A program made the translations under genes and the position numbers. Shown here piece after piece: positions 9,891 through 28,774 of a stretch of DNA of 47,637 bases. Within the stretch, counting starts at the first letter, position 1. The number at the start of each line of letters is the position of its first letter. A model generated the notes under the pieces. That model was not told where the DNA came from and searched no databases. It saw only the letters and a list, made by a program, of their open reading frames with translations. Source of the DNA: a bacterium. Lineage in GTDB: Bacteria > Patescibacteriota > Patescibacteriia > JACPHY01. The stretch covers positions 1 through 47,637 of the forward strand of contig JAUSKG010000027.1 in assembly GCA_030647005.1 (NCBI GenBank), read 5' to 3'.

Positions 9891-11666
9891 ATGACTCCCG
9901 CACGGAAAACGAGAGGCGCGTGGAGCGGACACGCCGCTGCGCCACACGCGGCTGTCCGAGATCCGCGCCTCGCGGTGGTGGCGGGGGCGTTCGCGTTCTT
10001 CTTCGTCGTGATCGTGGCCCGGCTCTTCGTCGTGCAGGTACGCCAGCACGCGTGGTACACCGGGCTCGCCAATGGACAGCGTGAGTTGTTCCAGCAGCTC
10101 TCCGCAGAACGCGGAGAGGTTTTTGTACACGATCGGCAGCGGCCTGGCGGTGTGTTTCCGATCGCGACGAACGAGCGCACGTATACCCTGTACGCGGTCC
10201 CCGCCGAGATCACGGAGCCCAAGCATGTTGCCGGGCTCCTCGCGCCGCTCCTTGAGCTCTCCGAGGAGGCAGAGATCGCGCTCGCCGAGCGACTCGCGAA
10301 GCAGCGCGACCCGTACGAGCCGATCGCGCGCGATGTCTCGTCGCAGCTCCACGATGCTGTCCTCGCGTTTGGGCTCGACGGTATCGCGTTCGAGCCCACG
10401 CTCTCGCGGCTCTATCCCGATGGGCCACGCATGGCGCACGTGACGGGTTTCCTCGGTGAAGATGAGCAGGAGATCGCCGGACGATACGGCATCGAGGGCG
10501 CATTCGAGACATCGCTCGCGGGTCGCACGGGGTTCTTGGAAGGCGAGCGCGATCCGGCAGGTCGCTGGATCCTTTTCGGCGATCGCTCGGTACGGCGCGC
10601 GGAGGACGGTTCCGATCTCACGCTCACGATTGAGCGTGAGGTACAGCTCGAGGTCTGCCGGCGACTCGAAGCCGCGGTTGCAGAGCATGGAGCGACGGGC
10701 GGGTCCGTCATCGTACTCCACCCCATGACGGGTGCGGTCCGCGCGATGTGTGCGGTGCCGTCGTTCGATCCCAATAACTACGCGAACGTCGAGGACATCG
10801 GTGTGTACCAGGCGCCGGCGGTCACGAATGCGTACGAGGTGGGATCGGTCTTCAAGGCCGTCACGATGGCGGCGGCGATTGAAGCCGAGGCCGTTTCGCC
10901 GGGTACGACATTTGAGGATGTGGGCAGCGTCACGTACGATGGCTACACGATCAAGAACACGTCCGATCGTGTCTACGGGCGCGTGGATATGGCCGACGTG
11001 CTCCGGTACTCCATCAATACCGGCATCGTATTCGCTGCGATGGAACTCGGGCACGAGCGCTTCCGACAGGCCGTCGAGCGGTTCGGGTTCGGCGTGCGCT
11101 CCGGTATCGCGCTCGATGCGGAATCACCCGGGAACATCGCAAACCTCGCGCAGCGCGGCGACATTTACCTCGCTACCGCGTCGTTCGGCCAGGGCATCAC
11201 CGCGACGCAGCTCCAGCTCGCGTCCGCGTACGCCGCAATCGCGAACGGCGGGAACCTCATGGAGCCGCGACTCGTGGAGGCCATGGTCTCCTCGGACGGG
11301 ACGCGGCGGACGTTCGAGCCGCGGATCATCCACCGCGCAGTGAGCCAGCGAACGGCGACCCTCCTCCAGGGGATGCTCGTGAGCGTCGTGCGGGACGGCT
11401 ACCCCAAACGCGCCGGTGTCCCGGGCTACCTCGTCGGCGGCAAGAACGGCACCGCACAGATTCCGTACGCGGATCGGCCCGGGTATTCCGCGGACACCAT
11501 CCATTCGTTCGTGGGTATCGGGCCGGTGGATCGCCCCACGTTTTCCATCGCGATCCGCATTGACCGCCCGCAGCGCAGCTTTGCCGACTCCACCGCCGCG
11601 CCGTTGTTCGGCGAGATCGCGAAGTTCCTGGTACAGTACGATGGAATACCGCCGCGAAAGGAGTGA
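9891..11666 (+). CDS. Class B penicillin-binding protein (FtsI/PBP2 type transpeptidase)
   Basis: The enzyme cross-links peptidoglycan stems on the outer face of the membrane. A single N-terminal helix (VVAGAFAFFFVVIVARLFVV, residues ~24-43) anchors it. A dimerisation/pedestal region follows, then the transpeptidase with the SxxK serine in GSVFKAVTMA (residue ~320) and the SxN motif in RYSINTG (~375). The third motif, normally KTG or KSG, reads GGKNGTAQIP here: the lysine and glycine are kept but the middle residue is Asn. Length (591) is typical. It starts 15 bases after the Ca-repeat protein and is the last gene of the run before a dispersed repeat and murF. Division (FtsI) or elongation (MrdA) role cannot be decided from sequence alone. 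Confidence 0.88.
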   Translation: MTPARKTRGAWSGHAAAPHAAVRDPRLAVVAGAFAFFFVVIVARLFVVQVRQHAWYTGLANGQRELFQQLSAERGEVFVHDRQRPGGVFPIATNERTYTLYAVPAEITEPKHVAGLLAPLLELSEEAEIALAERLAKQRDPYEPIARDVSSQLHDAVLAFGLDGIAFEPTLSRLYPDGPRMAHVTGFLGEDEQEIAGRYGIEGAFETSLAGRTGFLEGERDPAGRWILFGDRSVRRAEDGSDLTLTIEREVQLEVCRRLEAAVAEHGATGGSVIVLHPMTGAVRAMCAVPSFDPNNYANVEDIGVYQAPAVTNAYEVGSVFKAVTMAAAIEAEAVSPGTTFEDVGSVTYDGYTIKNTSDRVYGRVDMADVLRYSINTGIVFAAMELGHERFRQAVERFGFGVRSGIALDAESPGNIANLAQRGDIYLATASFGQGITATQLQLASAYAAIANGGNLMEPRLVEAMVSSDGTRRTFEPRIIHRAVSQRTATLLQGMLVSVVRDGYPKRAGVPGYLVGGKNGTAQIPYADRPGYSADTIHSFVGIGPVDRPTFSIAIRIDRPQRSFADSTAAPLFGEIAKFLVQYDGIPPRKE

Positions 11667-11685
11667 TGGTGCCTCCTTCCTCTCC

Positions 11686-11798
11686 GTCATTTCGACCGAG
11701 TGCGTCCGCGAGCGAGTGGAGAAATCTCGTTTCGCGGTTCAATGGGTCGTGGTACTGTAGGACGAGATTTCTCGACTCGTGGACTCGCTCGAAATGAC
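11686..11798. repeat. Inverted GTCATTTCGA...GAGAAATCTC repeat
   Basis: A 113-base element whose left arm (GTCATTTCGACCGAG...GAGAAATCTCG) and right arm (CGAGATTTCTCGACTCG...CGAAATGAC) are inverted copies. It separates the PBP gene from murF. The same element occurs at 25188-25272 and 29964-30075, with half-copies near 964-1076. Confidence 0.85.
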
Positions 11799-11809
11799 GA
11801 AAAGACGCT

Positions 11810-13111
11810 ATGCACAAACTCCTCGAATCCCTCCTCGCCTTCCTCGCCCGCGCGGTCGTGAGGCGACAGCGGCCGTTCATCGTGGGGGTGACGGGCAGCG
11901 TGGGGAAGACGTCCGCGCGCGAGGCAATCCGCGCGGTCGTCGAGGTGGACCGCAGCGTGCGCGCAGCACCCAAGAACTACAATAACGAGATCGGTCTTCC
12001 GGTGACGATCATCGGCGGTCGCGCACCCGGGCGGTCACCGTTCGCGTGGGCGTCGGTGCTCGCGCGCGGCGTGTGGCGCGGGCTCGTGCGCGGGTTCCGC
12101 TACCCGGAGGCACTCGTCCTTGAGTACGGCGCGGATCATCCGGGTGATCTCGGGTACCTCCTCCGTATTGCGCGGCCGAGCGTGAGCGTCGTGACGGCCG
12201 TCGGTCCGGCGCACACGGAATTCTTCACGTCGGTTGACCGCGTGTGTGGTGAGAAGCGCAAGCTCATCACCGCGCTCGATCGTGACGGCATCGCGGTGCT
12301 CAACCGCGACGATGAACGGGTGTGGGCGATGGCCGATCGCGCGCGTGCCCGCGTCGTCGCGTACGGGACGCACGAGGCCGCGGATGTTCGCGGGATCGAG
12401 TACCGTGTGACATACGGCGAGCGCGGCACCACTGCGGACGCGAGTACCCCTCCTACTGGAGTGACGTTCAAGGTGGTTTCCGGCGGCGCGACGGTGCCCG
12501 TGCATCTCCCCGGGTGCCTCGGTGAGGGGCACATGCTCGCCGCGCTCGCGGGCGCGGCGGTAGGAGTGGGGCTCGGCATGCACCTCGTGGAGATTTCGCA
12601 CGCGCTGTCACAGTACGAGCCGCCGTGCGGTCGCATGCGGATCATTCCGGGCATCAAGGGGACAACGATCCTCGACGACTCGTATAATGCCTCGCCGCTC
12701 GCCGCGATCGTTGCGCTCCGCGCGCTCGAGTCACTCACGATTGCCGGTCGCACCTTCGCCATCCTCGGCGACATGCTTGAGCTCGGGCCGCTCACGCAGC
12801 GCGAGCACGAGAAAGTTGGCGAGTTCGCCGCAGCGCAATCGCTCACCACCCTCATCTGCATCGGCGATGCGAGTCGCTCTACCGCACGCGGCGCGCGGGC
12901 AGCGGGTATGCCAGAGGATTGCGTCCTCGAGTTCTCCCGCGCCGAGGACGCCGGCCGATTTGTCCAAGATCTCCTCCGTCCCGGCGACGCCGTGCTCGTG
13001 AAGGGCTCCCAGGGCATCCGCCTTGAACGCGTCGTCCGCGAGCTCATGGCCGATCCGCTCCGCGCGAAGGAGCTCCTCTGTCGCCAGGACCCAAAGTGGC
13101 TCGATCACTGA
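11810..13111 (+). CDS. murF: UDP-MurNAc-tripeptide:D-Ala-D-Ala ligase (MurF)
   Basis: MurF uses ATP to add D-Ala-D-Ala to the UDP-MurNAc tripeptide in the cytoplasm. The Mur ligase P-loop is GVTGSVGKTSAREAI (residues ~26-40). The central domain carries EYGADHPGD and VTAVGPAHTEFF, and the C-terminal domain has the MurF signature LDDSYNASPLA near residue 290 with FAILGDMLELG. Length (433) is normal for the family. ATG 11810 follows a dispersed repeat. It is transcribed like the PBP upstream and may share its message. A bidirectional hairpin at 13119-13155 lies just after its stop. Confidence 0.93.
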   Translation: MHKLLESLLAFLARAVVRRQRPFIVGVTGSVGKTSAREAIRAVVEVDRSVRAAPKNYNNEIGLPVTIIGGRAPGRSPFAWASVLARGVWRGLVRGFRYPEALVLEYGADHPGDLGYLLRIARPSVSVVTAVGPAHTEFFTSVDRVCGEKRKLITALDRDGIAVLNRDDERVWAMADRARARVVAYGTHEAADVRGIEYRVTYGERGTTADASTPPTGVTFKVVSGGATVPVHLPGCLGEGHMLAALAGAAVGVGLGMHLVEISHALSQYEPPCGRMRIIPGIKGTTILDDSYNASPLAAIVALRALESLTIAGRTFAILGDMLELGPLTQREHEKVGEFAAAQSLTTLICIGDASRSTARGARAAGMPEDCVLEFSRAEDAGRFVQDLLRPGDAVLVKGSQGIRLERVVRELMADPLRAKELLCRQDPKWLDH

Positions 13112-13155: not shown

Positions 13156-13684
13156 GGGTGACGTTGCGGGCGCGTCGTAGATGTCTGTAGCAGCGGGAGC
13201 AGCGGCCGAGCGATTGGATGACTTTCGTCTCCCTGCAATCGGCGCACGTACCGACGCTGCTCCTGCGGTAGCAGTTCGCGCAGATTGGCTCTCCCGTGTC
13301 GGTGCGCGTTCTTACCGGTTTGACCGTCTCGCACCCGGAGCACCGCTCGTGTGTGGAGGAATCATGATACCGAGCGCGGTGGTAGCAGTTCGTGCAGATC
13401 GGTTTTCCCGTATCGGTGCGCGTTACGACCGGCTTGAGCTCGCCGCACCTGGAGCATCGTTTGTGTTTGGTGGGATCATGATGCCACGCGAGCGAGTAGC
13501 AGCTCAGGCAGATCGGTTTGCCGGTTCTCGTGCCTGAAACAATCGCCTTGATGTCATTGCACGTGAAACACTGCCGGTGCGTAGAGGGGTCGTTTCTGCG
13601 GCAAGCCCGGCAAACGAGCTTACTGTTTTTTCGACTGCGCTGGACGTCCTTACGTTTGCTGCAGACGCTACACGTACCTTCCAT
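13145..13684 (-). CDS. Tandem CxxC zinc-knuckle protein of unknown role
   Basis: A 179-residue protein built from five consecutive modules of about 35 residues, each with a CxxC pair, a basic spacer and a second CxxC pair: CSVC/CRAC, CFTC/CLSC, CSRC/CTNC, CSGC/CANC and CADC/CSRC. The middle modules are near-copies (RTDTGKPICTNCY versus RTDTGEPICANCY), pointing to recent internal duplication. Each module could hold one zinc ion. The protein is basic and soluble, so nucleic-acid or protein binding is plausible but not shown. I chose ATG 13684 because AAAGGA precedes it; TTG 13729 would add 15 residues without a ribosome site. Confidence 0.72.
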   Translation of the reverse strand: MEGTCSVCSKRKDVQRSRKNSKLVCRACRRNDPSTHRQCFTCNDIKAIVSGTRTGKPICLSCYSLAWHHDPTKHKRCSRCGELKPVVTRTDTGKPICTNCYHRARYHDSSTHERCSGCETVKPVRTRTDTGEPICANCYRRSSVGTCADCRETKVIQSLGRCSRCYRHLRRARNVTHPA

Positions 13685-15058: not shown

Positions 15059-15070
15059 GTCATTGCGAAA

Positions 15071-15093
15071 GGGAACTATAGACAATACTACCC
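15071..15093 (+). repeat. Left terminal inverted repeat
   Basis: Starts GGGAACTATAGACAA and ends ACTACCC. It pairs with the right end with one T/C difference at position 16. Confidence 0.92.
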
Positions 15094-15101
15094 CAAAATA
15101 C

Positions 15102-15129
15102 GCTATCGTTGATGTATCAACAGCATAGC
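15102..15129. promoter_or_regulatory. Palindrome upstream of first cargo gene (possible operator)
   Basis: GTTGAT-GT-ATCAAC (15108-15121) is a perfect dyad, extended by GCTAT (15102-15106) and ATAGC (15125-15129). It ends 4 bases before the ATG of the small membrane protein. It may bind the element's own winged-helix protein; that link is inference. Confidence 0.45.
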
Positions 15130-15133
15130 TTTT

Positions 15134-15343
15134 ATGGACGAAAGAATAAGCACAAAAGAACACCATACTACAATCGTTATCATCGGAATAGTTTACGCGT
15201 TCCTTGGTACGACTTATCCAGTGACAACCCTTTCATTCTTGAGGGAGTTTGCGCTGAAATTGTTAGAAAACGGAATGGTAATCACTTTCGCATTGTTCAT
15301 AGAACTCATTTACAACGACTTCAAGAACAGGAAGCGTCCGTAG
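15134..15343 (+). CDS. Small two-helix membrane protein (element cargo)
   Basis: A 69-residue protein with two likely membrane helices (TTIVIIGIVYAFLGTTYPV and MVITFALFIELIY) and charged ends. It lies just inside the left terminus of the mobile element, 5 bases after a palindrome. It uses several AUA codons (in RIS, GIV and FIE), rare in the surrounding chromosome. No ribosome site is apparent. Family unknown; the second small membrane protein at 16565 has a similar build but no obvious sequence identity. Confidence 0.6.
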   Translation: MDERISTKEHHTTIVIIGIVYAFLGTTYPVTTLSFLREFALKLLENGMVITFALFIELIYNDFKNRKRP

Positions 15344-15391
15344 GAAAAAATCAAAAACACTACGGGCTTTTTCTTGACTTTCAATCGTGAC

Positions 15392-15420
15392 TTGACAACC
15401 CTAAAATGGCATTGTACAGT
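15392..15420 (+). promoter_or_regulatory. Consensus-like promoter of the transposase
   Basis: TTGACA (15392-15397), a 17-base spacer and TACAGT (15415-15420). Transcription would start near 15427, one or two bases before the transposase ATG (15429), giving a leaderless or nearly leaderless message. Confidence 0.75.
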
Positions 15421-15428
15421 ATGAATAT

Positions 15429-16370
15429 ATGAAGAAAGCAGCCAAAAAGTCACTATCCGATTTCCTTACAGAGTTTCCCAACGAGAACACCTGTCATAAG
15501 TATTTTGAGGCGATTCGTTTCCGTGATGGCGAGTATTGCGCACACGGATGCGGGAGCACGAAGATATACCGCTTCAATGACGGTAAGCGGTTTCGGTGTG
15601 CGAAATGCAAAAAGGACTTCACGCTCAAAACAGGAACGATATTTGGCGAAAGCAAGGTGTCACTTCGTAAGTGGTTCATTGCGATCTACTTGCTCACAAC
15701 ATGCAAAAAGGGCATCTCCTCCGTGGAGCTTTCCGAGAAGGTGGGCGTATGTCAAAAAACGGGATGGTTTATGGATCATCGCATCCGTACTGCTATGCAA
15801 CAGGGCAGCAATCCATTCGTCGGTTCCATTGAGGCAGACGAAACTTACGTCGGTGGTAAGGAAAAGAACAAACACGCATCAAAGCGAACGAGTGGAACAA
15901 AGGGGCGATCCACAAAGACCAAGGCGCCTGTATTCGGGATGCTAGAACGTAAACAAAATGAGATGCCGCATTCACGCGTCAAGGCAACGGTGGTGAGCGA
16001 TGTGCGCCGAAAGACACTAGAGCCGATGATCAAAAACGCCGTTTTGGAAGGGTCAAACCTATACACAGACAAGTTGCTCTCCTACGCAAAAATTGGTATA
16101 GTATATACACACGAAACGGTGAATCATGGCGTTGGGGAATACGTCCGAAATGATGCCCATACCAACGGAATCGAGAGTTTCTGGGCGATCTTCAAGCGTG
16201 GGTATGTTGGCGTGTATCATCAGATGAGCGAAAAGCATCTCCAGCGGTATGTGGACGAGTTTGCGTACCGCTTCAATTCCCGCATACTCGGATTCGATGA
16301 CCTTTTCGCCGATATGGTCAATCGAGTGTCTGCAAGTGAGAACCTTTCGTACAAGAAACTGACTAGATAA
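15429..16370 (+). CDS. IS1595-family transposase (ISXO2-like DDE)
   Basis: The 313-residue protein matches the IS1595 layout. An N-terminal zinc ribbon (AHGCGSTKIYRF...FRCAKCKKDF, residues ~35-65) is followed by the family phrase LKTGTIFGESKVSLRKWF. A helix-turn-helix region comes next, then the catalytic core with the first Asp in SIEADETYVGGKEKNK (~135), the second in LYTDKLLSYAK (~215) and the third acidic region in HTNGIESFWAIFKRGYVG (~245). It makes the cuts and strand transfers at the element's inverted ends. Several codons are AUA, including the Ile of GTIFGES where the family has Ile. It looks intact, so the element may be active. Confidence 0.92.
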   Translation: MKKAAKKSLSDFLTEFPNENTCHKYFEAIRFRDGEYCAHGCGSTKIYRFNDGKRFRCAKCKKDFTLKTGTIFGESKVSLRKWFIAIYLLTTCKKGISSVELSEKVGVCQKTGWFMDHRIRTAMQQGSNPFVGSIEADETYVGGKEKNKHASKRTSGTKGRSTKTKAPVFGMLERKQNEMPHSRVKATVVSDVRRKTLEPMIKNAVLEGSNLYTDKLLSYAKIGIVYTHETVNHGVGEYVRNDAHTNGIESFWAIFKRGYVGVYHQMSEKHLQRYVDEFAYRFNSRILGFDDLFADMVNRVSASENLSYKKLTR

Positions 16371-16373
16371 CCT

Positions 16374-16490
16374 ATGAGCCGCGAGAGGAAAACGCACAAG
16401 CCGCTCGCATCAACGCTCGACAAGGTTCTCGGAGCGATAGCCGACAAGGGAAGACCGAAAAAGAAGGAACGCAAAAAGAAGGCCAAGTAA
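16374..16490 (+). CDS. Small very basic protein after the transposase
   Basis: A 38-codon frame starts 3 bases after the transposase stop, so the two are probably translated from one message. Its product (MSRERKTHKPLASTLDKVLG...) ends in a Lys/Arg block (RPKKKERKKKAK), a natural nucleic-acid-binding tail. It may assist transposition or simply be a non-functional remnant. No family recognised. Confidence 0.5.
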   Translation: MSRERKTHKPLASTLDKVLGAIADKGRPKKKERKKKAK

Positions 16491-16564
16491 CTTGACATTG
16501 GCTTTCCTGGGTGATAAGAAGTATCTATCCTGGACGCCTACTACAGGATTATCATCAAGACGGC

Positions 16565-16780
16565 ATGAAAAATATTCTTCAGAAAATCACGAATAAAGTG
16601 TGGCTGAGCGTGCTTGTCTGGGCTGGTTTATTGCTAGTAAGTAGGTACGTCATCAGAAATGATATCTTTGGGACAGTTGCAGAACTCGGTGGAGTATTCT
16701 TGTTCATTGACGCACTGTATAAGTGGTCAAAAAAAACAAAATCAAACAAACAATCTGTTGATCGTTCCAAGAGTGGATGA
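16565..16780 (+). CDS. Small membrane protein (element cargo)
   Basis: A 71-residue frame begins MKNILQKITNKVW, followed by two hydrophobic segments (LSVLVWAGLLLVSRYV and GTVAELGGVFLFIDALY) and a basic tail (KWSKKTKSNK). A TTGACA at 16492-16497 lies upstream without a convincing -10. It precedes the tRNA, which is on the opposite strand. Unknown function; it could be a membrane-acting toxin or anchor, but nothing proves it. Confidence 0.5.
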   Translation: MKNILQKITNKVWLSVLVWAGLLLVSRYVIRNDIFGTVAELGGVFLFIDALYKWSKKTKSNKQSVDRSKSG

Positions 16781-16789
16781 GAGAAGTGA

Positions 16790-16879
16790 CGGAGGGGAAG
16801 GGATTCGAACCCTCGGACGTGGTATCAGCACGTCGGTCGTTTATAAGACGACTGGTTTAGGCCTCTCGCCCACCCCTCC
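16790..16879 (-). tRNA. Class II tRNA with anticodon UAU (codon AUA), carried by the mobile element
   Basis: The minus strand folds as a full cloverleaf of 90 nt: acceptor GGAGGGG/CCCCTCC, anticodon stem GTCGT/ACGAC with loop CTTATAA (anticodon TAT), a long variable arm GACGTG-CTGATAC-CACGTC, and T arm GAGGG-TTCGAAT-CCCTT. The D stem is weak (two G-C pairs plus C-A and G-A). The discriminator is G73, followed by TCA, so CCA is not encoded. By anticodon it would be Ile (AUA), but a long variable arm belongs to Leu, Ser and Tyr tRNAs. G73 and the GGAG...CUCC ends resemble bacterial tRNA-Ser, whose synthetase does not read the anticodon. Charging identity is therefore uncertain: Ile by anticodon, Ser by body. 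Confidence 0.85.
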
Positions 16880-16915
16880 TCATCTCTCTCACCCGCTGTT
16901 GGAATGATTGTCACA

Positions 16916-17001
16916 ACACCCTCTCACAGGGGATCGCGATTGTGCTGCGTGCTGCTGCTTATACCCAGCCACGCATGTCACGACCCCCTGCGAGAGGGTG
17001 T
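16916..17001. other. Long imperfect hairpin
   Basis: ACACCCTCTC-A-CAGGGG (16916-16932) pairs with CCCCTG-C-GAGAGGGTGT (16985-17001) around a 52-base loop that itself contains ATCGCGAT. It begins 2 bases beyond the stop of the minus-strand winged-helix gene and may terminate it or protect its 3' end. Confidence 0.6.
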
Positions 17002-17002
17002 T

Positions 17003-17377
17003 TTATTGTTCCTGCGTTGGCTGTTCTTGTCTGGCGTCCTTTTTTGCGTACACCCCACGCCTTACAATCTCGATTTTTCCTTCCGCTTTGAGGTTCGATA
17101 GCGCACCCTGTACTTGATCCGCCGAAACAGAAACACCATGCACCGTCTTGATCCATGGAACGATGCCTGACTTTGCAGCTCCAGCCGACCCCTTTGAGTC
17201 AATGTATGCAAAGACGCTTCCTTTCAAGCTGAACCCACGGGGCAGCGAGGATGATTTCTTCCTGCCACTTTTTGTCTGCGGATGATAGATTTTCCGTAGC
17301 TCGTCCTCCAAACGAGCGATTTCCGCGATGATCTCGTTCGCTCGTTGGTGTTTTGCTTTGATCCCTTCGTCTACCAT
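17003..17377 (-). CDS. Coiled-coil plus winged-helix-like protein (element cargo, possible regulator)
   Basis: A 124-residue protein starts at ATG 17377. Residues ~5-35 are a heptad-like charged helix (KHQRANEIIAEIARLEDELRKIY), then a basic linker (KSGRKKSS). The C-terminal domain (GSVFAYIDSKGSAGAAKSGI ... VSADQVQGALSNLKAEGKIE ... IVRRGVYAKK) has the helix-helix-hairpin pattern of a winged helix. It is probably a DNA-binding regulator of the element. A promoter with TTGCAA, 18 bases and TACAAT places transcription start about 2 bases before this ATG, which is why I prefer it to ATG 17437. Confidence 0.65.
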   Translation of the reverse strand: MVDEGIKAKHQRANEIIAEIARLEDELRKIYHPQTKSGRKKSSSLPRGFSLKGSVFAYIDSKGSAGAAKSGIVPWIKTVHGVSVSADQVQGALSNLKAEGKIEIVRRGVYAKKDARQEQPTQEQ

Positions 17378-17385
17378 AGAAACGT

Positions 17386-17415
17386 ATTGTACCAAATGCA
17401 CGCCGCCACTTGCAA
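17386..17415 (-). promoter_or_regulatory. Promoter of the winged-helix gene
   Basis: On the minus strand, TTGCAA (17410-17415), an 18-base spacer and TACAAT (17386-17391). The -10 ends 8 bases before the ATG at 17377, so the transcript would have almost no leader. Confidence 0.65.
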
Positions 17416-17484
17416 CAGCTAACCGTACCGTATCCATTCAAGTATACGGACTACCAAAAAATCATGCAAGCACGCACCTAGCCA

Positions 17485-17512
17485 CGGAAAACAAAACAGC
17501 CCCGAAGGGCTG
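17485..17512 (-). terminator. Inward-facing terminator near right end of element
   Basis: On the minus strand CAGCCC-TTCG-GGGCTG is followed by TTTTGTTTT. It would stop minus-strand transcription entering from the neighbouring chromosomal gene (17642-18331), insulating the element. Confidence 0.65.
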
Positions 17513-17520
17513 CTCTACTA

Positions 17521-17543
17521 GGGTAGTGTTGTCTATAGTTCCC
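17521..17543 (-). repeat. Right terminal inverted repeat
   Basis: Complement of the left end with one mismatch. It is followed directly by the target duplication TTGCGAAA at 17544-17551. Confidence 0.92.
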
Positions 17544-17559
17544 TTGCGAAATGGTGGAC

Positions 17560-17584
17560 GGGAGGGGGTAAACCCCTCCCCTAC
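17560..17584. repeat. Single GTAGGGG-family REP
   Basis: GGGAGGGGGT-AAACCCCTCCCCTAC is a single copy of the palindrome seen as an inverted pair at 21103-21195. It lies 8 bases outside the mobile element's right target duplication. Confidence 0.75.
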
Positions 17585-17641
17585 GTTTGCGTGCAGAGAG
17601 CAATCCCAAAGGAGAAGCCCCCGCGCGCGTGGCGTCAGGGG

Positions 17642-19141: not shown

Positions 19142-20485
19142 ATGGCGTTCACCCGGAGCGATTGGAATGACGTGGCCGCGCAGGAGCGGCGTCTCGATGT
19201 GGCGATCGCGTCGTTTACCGCGGGCGAGGTGGAGCGCATCCGCCATGCGCTCGCGTTCGCGCGCGATGCGCACGCAGGGCAGCTGCGGAAGGGGAGCATC
19301 GGCACGCCATACATCGTCCATCCCGTGCGTGTTGCGGCATCGCTCGTTGAGGAGCTGGGCATTCGAGACGCTGACGCGATTGCCGCGGCACTCCTCCACG
19401 ATGTCGTGGAGGACTGTGACGTATCCCTCGACGCGATTGCGGCGTCCTTCAGCGATGCTATCGCGGGCGCGGTGCGATGGCTCACGTGGGTGCCGGGCCG
19501 CGATGCGAAGTGGATGCAGGCACGCGCGCTCCTCGACGCGCCGATGCACGTGCGCGCGGTGAAGGCAGCGGACATCATCGACAACGCGCGCGACATCGCC
19601 GCGACGCCGTCCGTGGGTCGTCGCATCGCGCTGCGATCTTATTACGGGTATGGACGTTGGGGCCGCCTTGTCGTTGCATCACTCGATCGAGATGACGCGC
19701 TCCGCCTGCTCGATGACGCGCTTGCCGCCGTGCGCGGGACGCACTTTTCGGGCGACCGCGAGCCGCTGTTCCGTGCGAACGTCGGGAAGGTGCTGACGGT
19801 GCGCGTGTCCGACGCCAACGGTGCGGAAGTGCCCGTTACGCGCTACCCCGTGCGCACGAGCGTCATCGCGGCGGGGGACGACCTCTTCGCCCTCGTGCGG
19901 AAGTACGCGCTCGAAGCGCTGCATCCCGATGATACCCTCGCGATCTCCGAGCGCGTCGTGGCGATCACGCAGGGCCGCGCGTACCGCATTGACGAGATAC
20001 GACCGCGGTGGCTCGCCACGCAGCTCGTACGGTTTGTCTCCAAGAATCCCGCGGGCATTGGACTCGCGATTCCGCAGACCATGGAGCTCGCGCTGCGCGA
20101 GGCCGGCACTGCGCGCATCCTCCTCGCCGCGTTCGTGTCCGCGATCACCAGGCCGTTCGGGGTGCGCGGGCTCTTCTACCGCCTCGCCGGTCATAGCGTG
20201 AATGCGATTGACGGACCCTGCGACTACACGCTCCCGCCATACAACGCGTACGCGGTGCTCGGCCCCAAGGACCCGGATGACGTTGCTGCGCACCTCGCGC
20301 GGCGCATCGGCGTGGACATCGCGATCATTGATGCGAACGATCTCGGTGTCGTCGTGCTCGGTGCGTCGGACGGCGTGGATCGGGATTTCATCCGGCGCGT
20401 GTTCAAGGACAACCCGCTCGGCCAATCCGCAGAGCAGACGCCGATGGCCATCGTGCGCCGCAGAGACGAGAAAGCCGACCTCTGA
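19142..20485 (+). CDS. Fusion of HD (p)ppGpp-hydrolase-like domain and CofE/FolC2-like gamma-glutamyl ligase domain
   Basis: The 447-residue product has two domains. Residues ~25-180 are an HD hydrolase of the RelA/SpoT/MESH1 type: HAGQLRKGSIGTPYIVHPVR, then ALLHDVVEDCDV, then VKAADIIDNARDI, keeping the expected His, HD, ED and Asp/Asn positions. No synthetase domain is present. Residues ~225-445 match the COG1478 CofE family (YPVRTSVIAAGDDLFALVRK, PAGIGLAIPQTMELALRE, IDGPCDYTLPPYNAYA, VDIAIIDANDLGVVVLG, FKDNPLGQSAEQTP). CofE adds glutamate to coenzyme F420-0. A chlamydial homologue (FolC2) instead replaces FolC in folate synthesis. The convergent neighbour is folK, which favours a folate role. 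Overall activity is inferred, not shown. Confidence 0.82.
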   Translation: MAFTRSDWNDVAAQERRLDVAIASFTAGEVERIRHALAFARDAHAGQLRKGSIGTPYIVHPVRVAASLVEELGIRDADAIAAALLHDVVEDCDVSLDAIAASFSDAIAGAVRWLTWVPGRDAKWMQARALLDAPMHVRAVKAADIIDNARDIAATPSVGRRIALRSYYGYGRWGRLVVASLDRDDALRLLDDALAAVRGTHFSGDREPLFRANVGKVLTVRVSDANGAEVPVTRYPVRTSVIAAGDDLFALVRKYALEALHPDDTLAISERVVAITQGRAYRIDEIRPRWLATQLVRFVSKNPAGIGLAIPQTMELALREAGTARILLAAFVSAITRPFGVRGLFYRLAGHSVNAIDGPCDYTLPPYNAYAVLGPKDPDDVAAHLARRIGVDIAIIDANDLGVVVLGASDGVDRDFIRRVFKDNPLGQSAEQTPMAIVRRRDEKADL

Positions 20486-20495
20486 GAGGTCGGCT
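20473..20495. terminator. Bidirectional hairpin holding both stop codons
   Basis: AGCCGACCTC-TGA-GAGGTCGGCT. The TGA loop is the stop of the HD-CofE gene, and the right arm overlaps the folK stop (20494-20496) on the other strand. A compact convergent terminator. Confidence 0.75.
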
Positions 20496-21006
20496 AGGAG
20501 CGGGGGATAATGAGCGTCCGGTGGAATCGGCGGATGCCGGCACGCTCGGCAGGTGGACGGGTGTCGAGGAGTTCGCGTGCAGTGCGGCCACAGACCGGAT
20601 GTCTCCAGTCCGGCGCGCAGGCGGCAAGGGGAACGAGCACGAATGAGCGTTGTGCCAGGCGCGGATGGGGAACGATCACTCCATCGTCTGTGATGACACG
20701 CTGTCCGTAGTCGAGGATGTCAATGTCCATCTCGCGCGGCGCATTGCGCGTGCGCTCGTGGCGGCCCAGCTCGCACTCGATGCGCTTGAGGACGGCGAGG
20801 AGCATGCGGGGTGCATACGTCGTCCTCGCGATGAGCACCACATTGAGGTAGCGCGCTTGCGGGGGACCGATCGGCTCGGTCTCATAGACCGGACTCGCAG
20901 CAACAATGCGCAGGTGTCGTGCGAGTATCGCCATCGCGGATGCACAATGCTGGAGACGCGGCTCGATGTTCGAGCCCAGCGCGAGCAGAACGGTTTCCTC
21001 GTCCAT
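20494..21006 (-). CDS. folK: 2-amino-4-hydroxy-6-hydroxymethyldihydropteridine pyrophosphokinase (HPPK)
   Basis: HPPK transfers pyrophosphate from ATP to 6-hydroxymethyl-dihydropterin, the step before dihydropteroate synthase in folate synthesis. Family marks are VLLALGSNIEPRLQHC at the start, VYETEPIGPPQARYLNVVL, the RNAPREMDIDILDYG signature and VIVPHPRLAQRSFVLVPLA. Length (170) is normal. ATG 21006 has AGGAGG 5 bases upstream; the longer frame is rejected. It is convergent with the HD-CofE/FolC2-like gene, the two stops lying in one hairpin. Other folate genes are not in the window. Confidence 0.92.
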   Translation of the reverse strand: MDEETVLLALGSNIEPRLQHCASAMAILARHLRIVAASPVYETEPIGPPQARYLNVVLIARTTYAPRMLLAVLKRIECELGRHERTRNAPREMDIDILDYGQRVITDDGVIVPHPRLAQRSFVLVPLAACAPDWRHPVCGRTARELLDTRPPAERAGIRRFHRTLIIPRS

Positions 21007-21102
21007 GGTTCCTCCTGTTGAAAGGATCGGCAACGTTGGATCGAGTATAGCCGACGACGCGCGCATGGGCAAGTGTTTTTTTCATGAATGACAGGAACGA
21101 AC

Positions 21103-21195
21103 GTAGGGGCGGGTTTTACACCCGCCCGTGTGCAGGCGGATGCTCGGGTATGGTGGCGTTCCAGCGATACAGGAGGGGGTAAACCCCTCCCCTAC
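21103..21195. repeat. Inverted pair of GTAGGGG-family REPs (REPIN-like)
   Basis: Left 21103-21127 reads GTAGGGGCGGG-TTTTA-CACCCGCCC. Right 21172-21195 is the inverted relative GGAGGGGGT-AAACCCCTCCCCTAC. A 44-base spacer separates them. A second REP family, distinct from the TGTAGCGG one, with a single copy at 17560. Confidence 0.78.
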
Positions 21196-21225
21196 GAGGG
21201 AATGTATCAACACGTTGTAATCTGA

Positions 21226-21252
21226 TTAGCACTCCTCGGTGATGAGTGCTAA
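21226..21252 (+). promoter_or_regulatory. CIRCE operator (HrcA binding site)
   Basis: A perfect CIRCE: TTAGCACTC, 9 bases, GAGTGCTAA. It lies 19 bases before the hrcA start. HrcA binds this site and represses the operon until heat or misfolding titrates GroEL/HrcA. I saw no other copy in the window. Confidence 0.97.
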
Positions 21253-21271: not shown

Positions 21272-21976
21272 ATGCTCACGAATCGTCAAATCGCTATCCT
21301 CTTTGAGGTTATTGCAGCGTACGTCGCGGTGCCGGAGCCCGTGTCGTCCGGTGAACTCGCGCGGCGTGGCATCGCGGCGAGCGCGGCGACGATCCGCGCA
21401 GACCTCGCGGTACTCGAAGCGCAGGGCTACCTCGTGCAGCCGCATACGTCTGCGGGACGCATCCCGACGCCCGCGGGGTATGAGGTGTATGTCGCACACG
21501 TTCGCCAGTACACATGTCAGGTTGCGGAGCAGCGCGTGGAGCAGTTCGCGCGGCTCATCGCCGAGGTCATGGCGGACATCCACCTCGCCGGACAGGCCAT
21601 CGCGCGCGCCATCGCGTCCGAGGCCGGACAGGCCGTCGTCGTGGGCGTGAGTCGGGACAATGCGTACGCGACGGGACTCTCGTACGTCATCGTGCAACCG
21701 GAGTTCCATGATCCCGCCGTGCTCCGCGCGTTCACCGCGGCGATTGATGACCTCCGTGCGTCCGTTGCGGTGATTGACGCGCACCTCACGGATGATTCGA
21801 CAGTCATCATCGGCACCGAGAATCCGTTCGGCGAGCAGTGCGGAACCGTTGCAAGTCGGCTTGAGCTCCCGGAGGGGCACCGCATCACAATTGGGATCAC
21901 CGGCCCCATGCGCATGGCCTACGATGCACAGCTCGGCTTGCTCCGCGATGTGCGCGCGGCTGTTGCAACGATGTAG
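21272..21976 (+). CDS. hrcA: Heat-inducible transcription repressor HrcA
   Basis: The 234-residue protein begins MLTNRQIAILFEVIAAYV, the HrcA winged-helix start. GIAASAATIRADLAVLEAQG is the recognition region and PHTSAGRIPTPAGYEVYV is the family signature. The effector region is shorter than in model HrcA (about 340 residues), lacking part of the inserted domain. It represses from the CIRCE at 21226-21252, so it controls itself and grpE/dnaK downstream. Its TAG stop (21974-21976) lies inside a REP palindrome, suggesting that the REP insertion set the present C-terminus. Confidence 0.95.
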   Translation: MLTNRQIAILFEVIAAYVAVPEPVSSGELARRGIAASAATIRADLAVLEAQGYLVQPHTSAGRIPTPAGYEVYVAHVRQYTCQVAEQRVEQFARLIAEVMADIHLAGQAIARAIASEAGQAVVVGVSRDNAYATGLSYVIVQPEFHDPAVLRAFTAAIDDLRASVAVIDAHLTDDSTVIIGTENPFGEQCGTVASRLELPEGHRITIGITGPMRMAYDAQLGLLRDVRAAVATM

Positions 21977-21995
21977 CGGAGACCTTCAGGTCTCC
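21972..21995 (+). repeat. TGTAGCGG REP containing the hrcA stop codon
   Basis: TGTAGCGGA-GACCTTCAGGTC-TCC. The TAG at bases 3-5 of the REP terminates hrcA. It belongs to the same family as the REPs flanking the RAYT gene. Confidence 0.85.
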
Positions 21996-22009
21996 ATGGT
22001 GAACAGGAT

Positions 22010-22528
22010 ATGGAGAGCGATCAACCAACAAACACCACCGAGGCACAGGATGCACACGCAGCGTGCGAGGAGCGCGCTGCCGATCTCGAGCGCAAGTGGA
22101 AACGTGCGCTCGCGGATCTCGTGAACAAGGACAAGGAGTTCGCGCGCGCGCGCGAGGAGCAGGCGAAGTTCGCAACGGCCAACTTCGCTCGCGACCTCCT
22201 CCCGATTGTGGATGCGGTGGATGCCACATCTGGCTCTCCCCCTCATCTTGAGGGGGAGCAGGAGGGGGTGTCTGTCGGTCTCCAGCGGGTGCGTAAGCAG
22301 CTCCACGATTTTCTCGCCGCGCACGGCGTGACACCCGTTCCCGCAGATGGACATCCCGACTATCTCCTTCACGAGGTCGTCGGAAATCGTGAAGACGCAA
22401 CTGCCGACCCCGGCACGATCGTCGAGGTCGCCCAGCAGGGCTACGCGATGCACGACCGCTGCCTCCGACCCGCAAAAGTCATCGTCGCCGCAGAGAAAGA
22501 CGCATCATCATCGGATGGGACGGTGTAG
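22010..22528 (+). CDS. grpE: DnaK nucleotide exchange factor GrpE
   Basis: GrpE releases ADP from DnaK. The 172-residue protein has the usual acidic N-terminus, a long coiled coil (AACEERAADLERKWKRALAD, residues ~18-60), NFARDLLPIVDAVD, and the C-terminal beta-wing (GYAMHDRCLRPAKVIVA). Residues ~73-86 (SGSPPHLEGEQEGV) are encoded by a CTCCCCCT/AGGGGGAG palindrome (22232-22272) inserted in frame, probably in the loop between helices. The TAG stop (22526-22528) lies in a TGTAGCGG REP, and residues beyond KVIVA are an extension of unclear value. It belongs to the CIRCE operon. Confidence 0.92.
   Translation: MESDQPTNTTEAQDAHAACEERAADLERKWKRALADLVNKDKEFARAREEQAKFATANFARDLLPIVDAVDATSGSPPHLEGEQEGVSVGLQRVRKQLHDFLAAHGVTPVPADGHPDYLLHEVVGNREDATADPGTIVEVAQQGYAMHDRCLRPAKVIVAAEKDASSSDGTV
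22232..22272. repeat. CTCCCCCT/AGGGGGAG palindrome inside grpE
   Basis: CTCCCCCTC-ATCTT-GAGGGGGAG followed by CAGGAGGGGGT, nearly the same as at 180-222 in the first gene. It is read in frame within grpE. Confidence 0.8.
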
Positions 22529-22547
22529 CGGAAACCTTCAGGTTTCC
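22524..22547 (+). repeat. Left REP flanking the RAYT gene (contains grpE stop)
   Basis: TGTAGCGGA-AACCTTCAGGTT-TCC, 11 bases before the RAYT start. It is in inverse orientation to the REP at 23040-23063. The grpE stop TAG is formed by REP bases 22526-22528. Confidence 0.88.
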
Positions 22548-22558
22548 ACGATCACGTC

Positions 22559-23029
22559 ATGAGAACCTTTCAACGGAAACCTCACCGACTCGCACCGACG
22601 ATCTATCGAGACATGCGAGCGTACTCACTCACTACCTGCACCGCAGATCGACATGCGGCATTCCGTGATGCACGAGTCGCTCGATACTGCATTACCGCAC
22701 TGCGCGCTCTTGAGCCGTTCGATGTATACCTCTACTGCTTCATGCCAGACCATCTTCATCTTCTGCTCGTCGCGAGCAGTGGTGACGCAGATCTCATTGA
22801 GGCAATGAAGCGATTCAAGCAGGGTACCGGATTCACCTACAAGCAGCAGGAGCGGCAACCGCTCTGGCAGAAGAGCTACTATGATCATGTGCTGCGTCGC
22901 GATGAGGACATTCGTTTCGTTGCGCGGTATATCGCAGAAAATCCCGTTCGTGCGGGGCTGGTGGAACATTACGGCGAGTATCCGTTGACTGGTTCGTTGA
23001 TCGGTCGGGTGGAGGATCTCGTCGCGTGA
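22559..23029 (+). CDS. REP-associated tyrosine transposase (RAYT, Y1/HUH type)
   Basis: The 156-residue protein has the IS200-like Y1 layout. An N-terminal strand YSLTTCTADRHAAF is followed by the HUH metal site in CFMPDHLHLLLVAS (residues ~60-73), AMKRFKQGTGFTYKQQ, the region of the catalytic Tyr in LWQKSYYDHVLRRDEDIR (~103-120), and the RAYT signature RYIAENPVRAGLVEHYGEYP. RAYTs cut single-stranded REP DNA and are thought to mobilise REPINs. Inverted TGTAGCGG REPs sit 11 bases before the start and 10 bases after the stop, making a 540-bp unit (22524-23063). It lies between grpE and dnaK, so read-through from the CIRCE-controlled promoter is likely. Confidence 0.93.
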   Translation: MRTFQRKPHRLAPTIYRDMRAYSLTTCTADRHAAFRDARVARYCITALRALEPFDVYLYCFMPDHLHLLLVASSGDADLIEAMKRFKQGTGFTYKQQERQPLWQKSYYDHVLRRDEDIRFVARYIAENPVRAGLVEHYGEYPLTGSLIGRVEDLVA

Positions 23030-23039
23030 TCGTCCGGAT

Positions 23040-23063
23040 GGAGGCCTGAAGGCCTCCGCTACA
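23040..23063 (-). repeat. Right REP flanking the RAYT gene
   Basis: GGAGGCCTGAAGGCCTCC followed by GCTACA, the inverted partner of 22524-22547. Nearly identical to the right half of the REP doublet at 2332-2399. Confidence 0.88.
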
Positions 23064-23216
23064 CGTCGGTACTTGTCAAATGTCCACGCTCATGGTAGTG
23101 TATGACTTTGAACACGTCAAGAATAAATACGGATCATTCCGCGCGGAGCGAGTGATCGCACGGTGCCGGGTGGTGTGTGCGATTGTTCGCTTCGCTCGAG
23201 ATGACGCAGCAACACT

Positions 23217-25076
23217 ATGCCAAAAATCATCGGTATTGATCTCGGGACCTCCAACTCTGCTGCGGCGGTCATGCAGGGTGGGTCCGTGAACATCGTTCCG
23301 GCGGCGGAAGGGGTATCCATTGGCGGGAAGGCGTTTCCGTCGTACGTCGCGTTCACGAAAGACGGGCAGAAGCTCGTGGGAGAACCGGCGCGCCGTCAGG
23401 CCGTGTCCAACCCGGGACGCACGTTCCACGGGTTCAAGCGTCGGATGGGGACGGACTGGAAGGCGACCGTGGACGAGAAGACGTACACGGCACCGCAACT
23501 CTCCGCGTTCGTGCTCCAGAAGATGAAGCAGGATGCCGAGCAGTACCTCGGCGAGTCGGTAGAAAAGGCCGTCATCACCGTGCCGGCGTATTTTGATGAT
23601 GCCCAGCGGCAGGCGACGAAGGATGCGGGCAAGATCGCTGGGCTCGATGTCGTGCGCATCATCAACGAACCCACGGCCGCCGCGCTCGCGTACGGACTGG
23701 ATCAGGATCGCAAGGAGGATCAGCACGTCCTCGTTTTTGATCTCGGCGGGGGAACGCTCGATTGCACCATCATGGAGATTACCAAGGAGGGCACATTTGA
23801 GGTTCGTTCGACATCCGGAGACACGCAACTCGGCGGACGCGACATGGACAGCGCGCTCCTCACCTTCATCGCGGACACATTCAAGCAGCAGGAGGGCATG
23901 GACCTCCGCAAGGACCCCATGGCACTCCAACGTCTCCACGAGGCGGCGGAGAAAGCGAAGATCGAACTCTCCACGACTATGGAGACAGAGGTGAACCTCC
24001 CGTTCATCTCCGCGACGCAGGAAGGTCCCAAGCACCTCCTCGTGAAGGTGACGCGCGCGAAGCTCGAGGAGCTCGTGCGTCCCACGGTGGACAAGTGTCG
24101 TCCGCCGGTGGTGCAGGCGCTGAAGGACGCGGGTCTCGACGCGAGCGCGATCAACCGCGTCATCCTCGTTGGTGGCCCCACGCGCATGCCCATCGTCCAG
24201 CAGCTCGTTGAGGAGATTGTCGGGAAGAAGATCGAGCACGGCGTAGATCCCATGGAGTGCGTCGCGAAGGGCGCGGCGATTCAGGCGAGCATCCTCTCCG
24301 GTGAGGACTCGAGCGTGAAGGACATCCTCCTCCTCGACGTCACGCCGCTCACGCTGTCCATTGAGACGCTCGGTGGTGTGGCGACGCCGCTCATCACGCG
24401 CAACACGACGGTACCCACGAGCAAGTCCCAGGTGTTCTCCACGGCGGCGGACAACCAGACGAGCGTCGAGGTGCACGTCCTCCAGGGCGAGCGTCCCATG
24501 GCGAAGGACAACAAGTCGCTCGGGCGTTTCATGCTCGACGGCATCCCGCCGTCGCCGCGTGGTCTCCCGCAGGTGGAGGTGACGTTCGACATTGATGCGA
24601 ACGGCATCATTACGGTGTCCGCGAAGGACAAGGCGACGAACAAGGAGCAGAAGATCACGATCAGCGGATCCGCGAAGCTCTCGGACGAGGAGATCGAGCG
24701 CATGAAGCGCGACGCGGAAGCGCACGCGGAGGAGGACAAGAAGCAGAAGGAGCTCGTCGAGCTCCGCAACCAGGCGGAGGTGGCAACGAGCGCCGCGGAC
24801 AAGGCGGTACGGGAACTCGGCGACAAGATCGAGGCATCGCTCAAGGCCGACATCGAGGAGAAGACGCGCAAGGTGCGCGAGGTGAAGGATGGCCAGGACG
24901 CAGCGGCGATCAAGCAGGCCATGGACGACCTCCAGCCCGCGCTCTCCAAGATCGGCGAGCAGATGTACAAGGAGGCGGCAGAGAAGGAGAAGCAGCAGAA
25001 GGAGCAGGGCGGAGATCAGACAAAGGATGCTGGCGGGGAGCGCGTGAAGGACGGTGATTTCTCCCCCAAGTCGTGA
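23217..25076 (+). CDS. dnaK: Hsp70 chaperone DnaK
   Basis: DnaK binds unfolded proteins in an ATP cycle driven by DnaJ and GrpE. The 619-residue protein shows all marks: [14 protein letters not shown] at the start, [70 protein letters not shown], the linker [17 protein letters not shown] and the substrate domain. It ends in a Gln/Lys-rich tail without the EEVD of eukaryotes. ATG 23217 follows 150 bases of non-coding DNA after the RAYT unit, including a degenerate dispersed repeat (about 23134-23205), and no CIRCE of its own, so expression probably depends on read-through from hrcA. A strong hairpin follows at 25091. Confidence 0.97.
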
Positions 25077-27208: not shown

Positions 27209-28774
27209 ATGGGCAATGTCAAGGATCTCCAGCGTGAGATCGAGGTGCTCGCAGTGCCACAGGATTTTGACGATCTCGTGGCGCGTGCGCTCGCGCACAA
27301 GCAGGCGCGCGATGGGGCGCGCATCCACCCACCGCAGTCGGCGTGTCCCCAATGCGACGAGCTCTCGCTGCGCGCGAATCTGGCCACACCCGCGAATCGT
27401 TTTCGCGACGGCAAGACGTGGTGGCATCACGTGTTCAGCACCGCGATCACCTGGGCCGGCGTGGTCGTCGGCACGTTGTATCTCACGTTCCTGCCGAAGC
27501 TCTTCACCATGCAAGCCGTCACGCCGGGGCTCTGGGTCCTAGTCCTCATGTTCATCGGTGGGATGCTGCTGCATCGCAACACAGAGACCGCCGACGAGTT
27601 CGCGAAGGAAGACGGCTTCAGCACGTTTTGGATATCGTGCGTGTGCGGCTTCGCCAACTGTTTCTCGCCGCTCTGGCTCTGGTACCGGCCGTTCCGACTC
27701 CTCTGCCACAAGATCGGGCACGGGGTGCGGCGCGTGCGCGCGTGGTTCCGCAAGCGGTTCGTGGAGGAGTGCGACACCTGTCGGAAGTGGCAGCTCGATC
27801 GGCGCGTCGTCTGGTCGGCGGTCGCGGTGATGAGCGGGTTGGTGGCGGTGCGTGTCGGCGCACTGTTCTTTGCCGCTGCGGATCGGCGCGTTGGTTCATC
27901 AGGAATGGGCTTCGCGGAAATCGCGATGTATTTTGTGCTGTTGGTCGGTGGTGCGGTGGTGGGTTTCTTGGGCCTCCTGGACCTTCGGTGGCGACTCTTC
28001 ACCTCTGTCTTCGGCCTCCGGAGCATCCTCCATCGTCACCTTGACGAGGTTCGTCAGCGAGATGCGATCGCGTACCATCGTACGAAGCTCGCGGCGCGCC
28101 ACGCGAACCTCTCCGATGACGACATCGCCACGCTCGTGCGGGAGTACCTCACCGAGCAGCTCATCGTCGGATCGCGTGAGCAGCTCATCGGCGGGACGAG
28201 TTCGTATGGAGCGCTCATGGCAGAGACCCTGTGCAACATCGCGCAGGGCAAGGCCAAGGAAGCGCGGTGCAACGGATTCGCCAAGAGCCTTGATCCGTTC
28301 CTACGCGAGCAGAGCGCGTCGCTCCAGGAGAGCATCGCGACGTACCTTCGGGAGAACGAGGAGTGCCGTCTGATCCTCGAGGACTTCAAGGCCAAGGTGA
28401 CCGCGCGCTTCGAGGAGCTGGAGAGTCGTCTCGGTGGCGTGTCCGATCGCATGCAGTTCCTCGCGCTCTCGCGTGACACGGACGATCTCATCGCGAGCGG
28501 TGAGGATCACGCCGCGCGGGTTCGCGAAGCCGTCGTGCAGCTCACGGTGGACCTCTACGAGGCAACCGCGAAGATCCGCGTCGCCATTGATACCGCGCTC
28601 AGCCACGCAGCGGGTGAGGCCGAATGCGAGGTGGCAACGGCCGACGGTGCCGCAGGGGGCGATCTCGTCCGCCTGCGTGCGTCCGCACAGCGCCTCCAGG
28701 CGAGCATGGACAGCGACGACGAGCAGCTTTCGGGCGACCGCGCCCGCAGCGTACCTCAGGCGCAGACCACCTGA
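27209..28774 (+). CDS. Unknown protein with cysteine pairs, membrane helices and long helical tail
   Basis: The 521-residue product begins with a soluble part containing [15 protein letters not shown]. Two helices follow ([33 protein letters not shown]), a cysteine-rich loop (CVCGFANC ... CDTCRKW), and two more helices ([40 protein letters not shown]). The last ~260 residues are helical and probably coiled coil ([20 protein letters not shown]). The cysteines resemble a split zinc ribbon. No catalytic motif is visible. Possibly a membrane-anchored scaffold or sensor; function unknown. GAGGAGG lies 5 bases before ATG 27209. Monocistronic, with its own promoter, structured leader and terminator. 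Confidence 0.72.

Follow-up and report, generated by a model that had tools for sequence, protein, structure and literature searches.

An SAH-type HD hydrolase domain fused to a CofE-fold ligase domain beside the heat-shock locus of a small patescibacterial lineage

The window (the whole stretch of DNA that was analysed, 47,637 nucleotides long) carries an open reading frame (ORF) in which two domains of known fold, otherwise encoded by separate genes, are joined in one protein. The features of the locus that bear on this protein are as follows.

9891-13108, + strand: penicillin-binding protein and MurF-like ligase genes, present upstream in each of the three genomes that carry the fusion
19142-20485, + strand: fusion ORF of 447 aa (SAH-type HD domain, linker and CofE-fold ligase domain), present in three genomes
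19142-19741, + strand: SAH/MESH1-type HD domain, about residues 1-200 (HD_4, MESH1 match, invariant columns, Foldseek)
19742-19837, + strand: inter-domain linker, about residues 201-232, poorly conserved
19838-20482, + strand: CofE-fold PF01996 ligase domain, residues 233-447 (Pfam, model, invariant columns)
20473-20495: GC-rich hairpin of 10 bp, spanning the fusion stop codon and the folK 3' end
20494-21072, - strand: folK (HPPK; PF01288, E 2e-33), convergent with the fusion
21226-21252, + strand: CIRCE operator (HrcA box), perfect (0 mismatches, 0 expected by chance), upstream of hrcA
21272-25076, + strand: hrcA-grpE-(RAYT-like transposase)-dnaK, with dnaJ following at 28434; present downstream in each of the three fusion genomes

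The locus and its fused gene

The 447 codons of the fusion are open from ATG to stop in a single frame. Both domains score above their Pfam gathering scores, HD_4 at residues 36-157 (E 9e-13) and F420_ligase (PF01996) at residues 237-395 (E 1.4e-10); the latter match, at 41.5 bits against a gathering score of 25, places the protein in the PF01996/COG1478 superfamily. Both folds are confidently modelled by AlphaFold2 in the whole chain (mean pLDDT 90.7, pTM 0.88), and the only significant Foldseek matches of this model are MESH1, SAH and Rel hydrolase domains and CofE. Neither the domain search nor the whole-chain model reveals a synthetase domain in the 447 aa. A frameshift artefact joining two genes is ruled out, since two relatives (genomes G002 and G001) encode the same in-frame fusion. 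Among the three genomes, the two halves are 52-80% identical and the linker about 32-50%, a contrast between constrained halves and a drifting linker that argues for selection on each half. The preliminary description of this DNA, which had recognised an HD domain and a COG1478 domain in one frame and had known of no enzyme so built, is borne out on both counts: a literature search yielded no described equivalent, and this fusion of known folds is a new architecture as far as the searched literature extends.

The hairpin (-19.3 kcal/mol, z -3.3) is terminator-like, although the + strand lacks a good T run, and is possibly the shared terminator of the fusion and folK. The convergent arrangement and the shared terminator-like hairpin thus stand as originally described, but folK proves to be a neighbour peculiar to the window genome. 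It is absent from G001 and G002, in which the gene adjoining the fusion in its place is P-loop kinase-like (G001) or phosphoribosyltransferase-like (G002). As an orphan in a genome without DHPS, DHFR_1 or FolC, the folK of the window is probably a recent acquisition or a remnant.

Mobile DNA occupies two sites in the window, namely the murF/fusion interval (IS1595 transposase) and the grpE/dnaK interval (Y1 transposase). At the first, 33-nt inverted repeats (15061-17553; 91% complementary, 2.4 kb apart) flank the IS1595-family transposase gene (15429-16370) and a 90-nt tRNA-Ile called by ARAGORN (16790-16879, - strand; anticodon TAT), which is long for a tRNA-Ile. The Y1 (RAYT-like) transposase gene lies at 22559-23029, and two near-identical 28-nt GGAGGGGGTAAACCCCTCC palindromic repeats (17558-17585 and 21169-21196) are possibly its REP elements. 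A tandem pair of 114-nt repeats (13267-13494; 76% identical) is located just downstream of the MurF-like gene.

The two halves of the protein

By sequence, the solved structures closest to the HD half are MESH1 (3nr1, E 1e-16) and Rel/SAH hydrolases, and by Foldseek its closest folds are MESH1/SAH. An alignment with human MESH1, stand-alone SAH-type proteins, and the Rel of the window genome shows no variation at residues H44, R49, H60, H86, D87, E90, D91, D144, and N148. The intact His, HD, ED, and D/N positions reported earlier, in a protein lacking a synthetase, are therefore confirmed, and no metal ligand is lost on alignment. With its second domain and its length of 447 aa, the fusion is not the small, single-domain protein that an SAH is expected to be; hence, the HD half is SAH-like, and the whole protein is not a typical SAH. 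The window genome also encodes a normal HD-synthetase Rel (L002), so that the alarmone is plausibly present in the cell. One orphan bacterial SAH hydrolyses (p)ppGpp, pppApp, and NADPH (PMC9765508), and promiscuity of the HD half is accordingly to be expected.

The ligase half, folded alone with AlphaFold2, gives a model of pLDDT 91.7, for which Foldseek returns CofE (2phn; E 2e-9, probability 1.00, TM 0.56) and no other significant PDB match. The N-terminal CofE motif GD..ISE..VAI.QGR is common to both, and 30 to 40 columns do not vary between phyla, whether the ligase is fused or stands alone (the 30-column alignment comprised Patescibacteria, Bacteroidota, Bacillota, and Actinomycetota). 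The aspartates in the CofE motifs NAG(I/V)D and (I/V)xD(T/S), which we take to be metal ligands in that enzyme, match D357 (NAID) and D397 (IIDAN), both invariant. These two residues are candidate metal ligands of the ligase half, an equivalence that rests on motifs matched by eye, as the alignment obtained in a profile comparison with true CofE was limited to the N-terminal portion. For the helix and loop at the C-terminus of CofE (the DEIAAFANLLMGEGGDG segment) there is apparently no clear counterpart; the family ends there in a short KDNPLGQ..EQTP.xIVR. Because identity to CofE is about 20% and this helix and loop are apparently missing, both the nucleotide used and the activity are uncertain; fold and conservation together suggest NTP-dependent amide chemistry.

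The apparent shortening of the nucleotide-loop region of CofE would also suit a domain that has lost its amide-ligase catalysis and instead senses a nucleotide or metabolite to control the HD hydrolase, in the manner of ACT and TGS in Rel, a family in which regulatory domains are as a rule fused to HD. The invariance of D357, D397, and the other conserved columns across phyla, whether fused or not, speaks against such a sensor, which we consider quite unlikely.

The ligase half appears to belong to a third, uncharacterised group of COG1478. Its stand-alone members, of about 235 aa, occur in Patescibacteria, Bacteroidales, Clostridia, and some Actinomycetota and Chloroflexi, and a literature search on the group in Patescibacteria found nothing. 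A role in F420 synthesis was rejected: no CofD scores over the cut-off in the window genome, and the fusion scores 27 bits with the CofE model (TIGR01916) against a cut-off of 180.65. True CofE was found in only one of eight checked genomes with a stand-alone ligase; with seven of these eight carriers lacking it, the group cannot be equated with CofE and is not tied to it. A second COG1478-like protein of about 400 aa (L136, 1444-2655), in a Clostridiales genome that also has a stand-alone ligase, represents another uncharacterised group.

Distribution and genomic setting

The fusion is present in all three examined genomes of the order, i.e. the window genome (G000), G002 (74% identity), and G001 (56% identity; the Uhrbacteria MAG JACPHY01, also L007), and was not found in 283 other sampled genomes of the class. 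When 84,980 species genomes were scanned with peptide patterns, a method limited in sensitivity although the most conserved ligase motif was one of the patterns, no fusion was detected apart from that of L007. The architecture is restricted to one lineage in the genomes searched. A 450-aa frame in L109 was considered as a second fusion and rejected, as it consists only of an SAH-type gene and an upstream open stretch. In phylogenetic trees, the HD halves of the fusions form one strongly supported group (100/99) whose place among stand-alone HD proteins is not fixed, and the ligase-half tree is compatible with a single origin (support 66/79, moderate). An HD gene adjoining a stand-alone ligase gene was not seen elsewhere. 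A single event in one small patescibacterial lineage probably joined the two genes, which stand alone elsewhere.

The preliminary description had proposed a folate (or other gamma-glutamyl) ligase physically tied to alarmone or nucleotide hydrolysis. The precedent for a folyl(poly)glutamate ligase of the FolC2 type is chlamydial CT611, a COG1478 member that replaces FolC in Escherichia coli (PMC1971073), and two features of the window genome agree with it, namely the folK gene adjoining the fusion and the lack of a canonical FolC. Profile searches of this genome, which is 98% complete, found no DHPS, DHFR_1, or FolC over the cut-off; neither CofD nor FolC, which in combination would have told against the proposal from another side, was detected. 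Among the three fusion genomes, DHPS, FolC, and CofD are absent from all, and DHFR is present in only one; both fusion-carrying relatives also lack folK. A weak FolC match in the window genome (G000:C31) was rejected as MurE, located beside MurD. In the class sample, FolC is present in 8 of the 18 genomes with a stand-alone ligase, a coexistence which indicates that the ligase is no substitute for FolC; when the three fusion genomes are included, FolC accompanies the ligase in 8/21 genomes versus 79/265 genomes without it (Fisher P 0.46). None of the six class genomes with DHPS has the ligase, a number too small for a test. The FolC2 model TIGR04132 (cut-off 350) did not report the fusion at E values up to 1 and gave its relatives 18-21 bits, and no folate family is among the most frequent Pfam families of the 139 immediate neighbours of ligase genes. 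In sum, what was described as a fusion of HD and COG1478 domains is real, but its reading as a FolC2-like ligase coupled to alarmone hydrolysis is highly improbable.

Gene order points elsewhere. In all three fusion genomes, it reads PBP-murF-fusion-(one variable gene)-CIRCE-hrcA-grpE-dnaK-dnaJ, the fusion lying upstream of CIRCE and thus outside the HrcA-controlled transcript. In four genomes from three other families of the class (L139, L144, L140, and L151), a stand-alone relative of the HD half occupies the dnaK/dnaJ interval, tightly spaced in L139 and L144 and with other sequence intervening in L140 and L151; a CIRCE-like box precedes hrcA in L139, L140, and L151. In genomes of about 1000 genes, chance placement between dnaK and dnaJ in three families is very unlikely, and these genes possibly encode a heat-shock-linked alarmone hydrolase. 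Most of the stand-alone HD genes examined are situated outside the dnaK locus (about 21 of the 27 loci, certain of these having short flanks). In Bacillus subtilis, (p)ppGpp has a part in the heat-shock response (PMC10212131). As to the coupling between one-carbon metabolism and starvation signals suggested at the outset, a link to stress signalling is plausible, with the genomic evidence pointing to hrcA-grpE-dnaK-dnaJ and away from the one-carbon part.

The upstream flank of the same conserved order, with PBP and MurF genes in 3/3 fusion genomes, raises the alternative that the ligase half modifies a precursor of peptidoglycan or of a surface polymer with an amino acid, the HD half being its regulator. 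In eight loci, FtsW, an M23 peptidase, or a Wzy-type ligase adjoins a stand-alone ligase gene, and the CofE-like gene qimC of Streptococcus pyogenes belongs to a wall-polymer operon (PMC13059722). The enrichment is biased, however, because some seed families were picked for being neighbours, and stand-alone ligases have no consistent partner, their surroundings being otherwise very mixed (157 Pfam families in the 139 neighbouring genes). Moreover, hrcA-dnaK is conserved equally beside the fusion. We regard an envelope role as unlikely.

Proposed function and comparison with known systems

On balance, we favour a bifunctional enzyme, comprising an SAH-type hydrolase of the alarmone or a related nucleotide and a CofE-fold, NTP-driven amide ligase with a substrate that is probably neither folate nor F420. 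We infer both activities, the ligase substrate, and the coupling of the two halves as follows. The HD half would remove the 3'-pyrophosphate from (p)ppGpp by metal-dependent HD chemistry or, alternatively, a phosphate from a related 3'- or 2'-phosphorylated nucleotide. The ligase half would use an NTP to form an amide between an amino acid, probably glutamate, and the carboxylate of a small acceptor molecule that is probably neither folate nor F420. Removal of the alarmone could restore the NTP (GTP or ATP) pool for the attached ligase during recovery from stress; alternatively, it could remove a competitor and so protect the ligase at the end of stress.

A bolder version holds that (p)ppGpp gates the synthesis of an as yet unknown gamma-glutamylated metabolite under heat or proteotoxic stress, by way of an alarmone hydrolase wired to a third COG1478 activity; this we find doubtful, and we are equally tentative about its corollary that a new type of ligase is widespread in Patescibacteria and gut anaerobes.

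If both halves of the favoured bifunctional enzyme are active, it would tie alarmone turnover directly and covalently to a biosynthetic ligase, in bacteria that have tiny genomes and whose stress physiology is almost unstudied. The analysis also draws attention to a widely spread, highly conserved, and uncharacterised group of CofE-like ligases that are easily mislabelled as F420 enzymes, and it shows that genes for small alarmone hydrolases are found repeatedly in the hrcA-grpE-dnaK-dnaJ locus. What the ligase group acts on, and the linkage of SAH genes to dnaK, are the parts most worth following.

Compared with known systems, the fusion shares COG1478 with FolC2-type ligases (TIGR04132, a model in which, judging by its name, we assume chlamydial CT611 to be included), but the fusion genomes are without a de novo folate pathway. 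With CofE (Archaeoglobus 2phn and 7uld), the ligase half has in common the fold and the N-terminal motif, and two aspartates appear to correspond; it differs in sequence (about 20% identity) and in the apparent absence of the C-terminal helix and loop. FbiB, in which a CofE domain is fused to a second domain (PMC10861534), provides a precedent for two-domain CofE-fold enzymes, although the CofE domain there is the N-terminal one and is joined to a domain other than an HD hydrolase. Long Rel/SpoT proteins, composed of HD, synthetase, and TGS domains, possess a homologous HD domain, whereas the fusion has neither synthetase nor TGS. MESH1 and the bacterial SAHs share with the fusion both the HD fold and the full catalytic set, and it is the attached ligase domain that sets the fusion apart from them.
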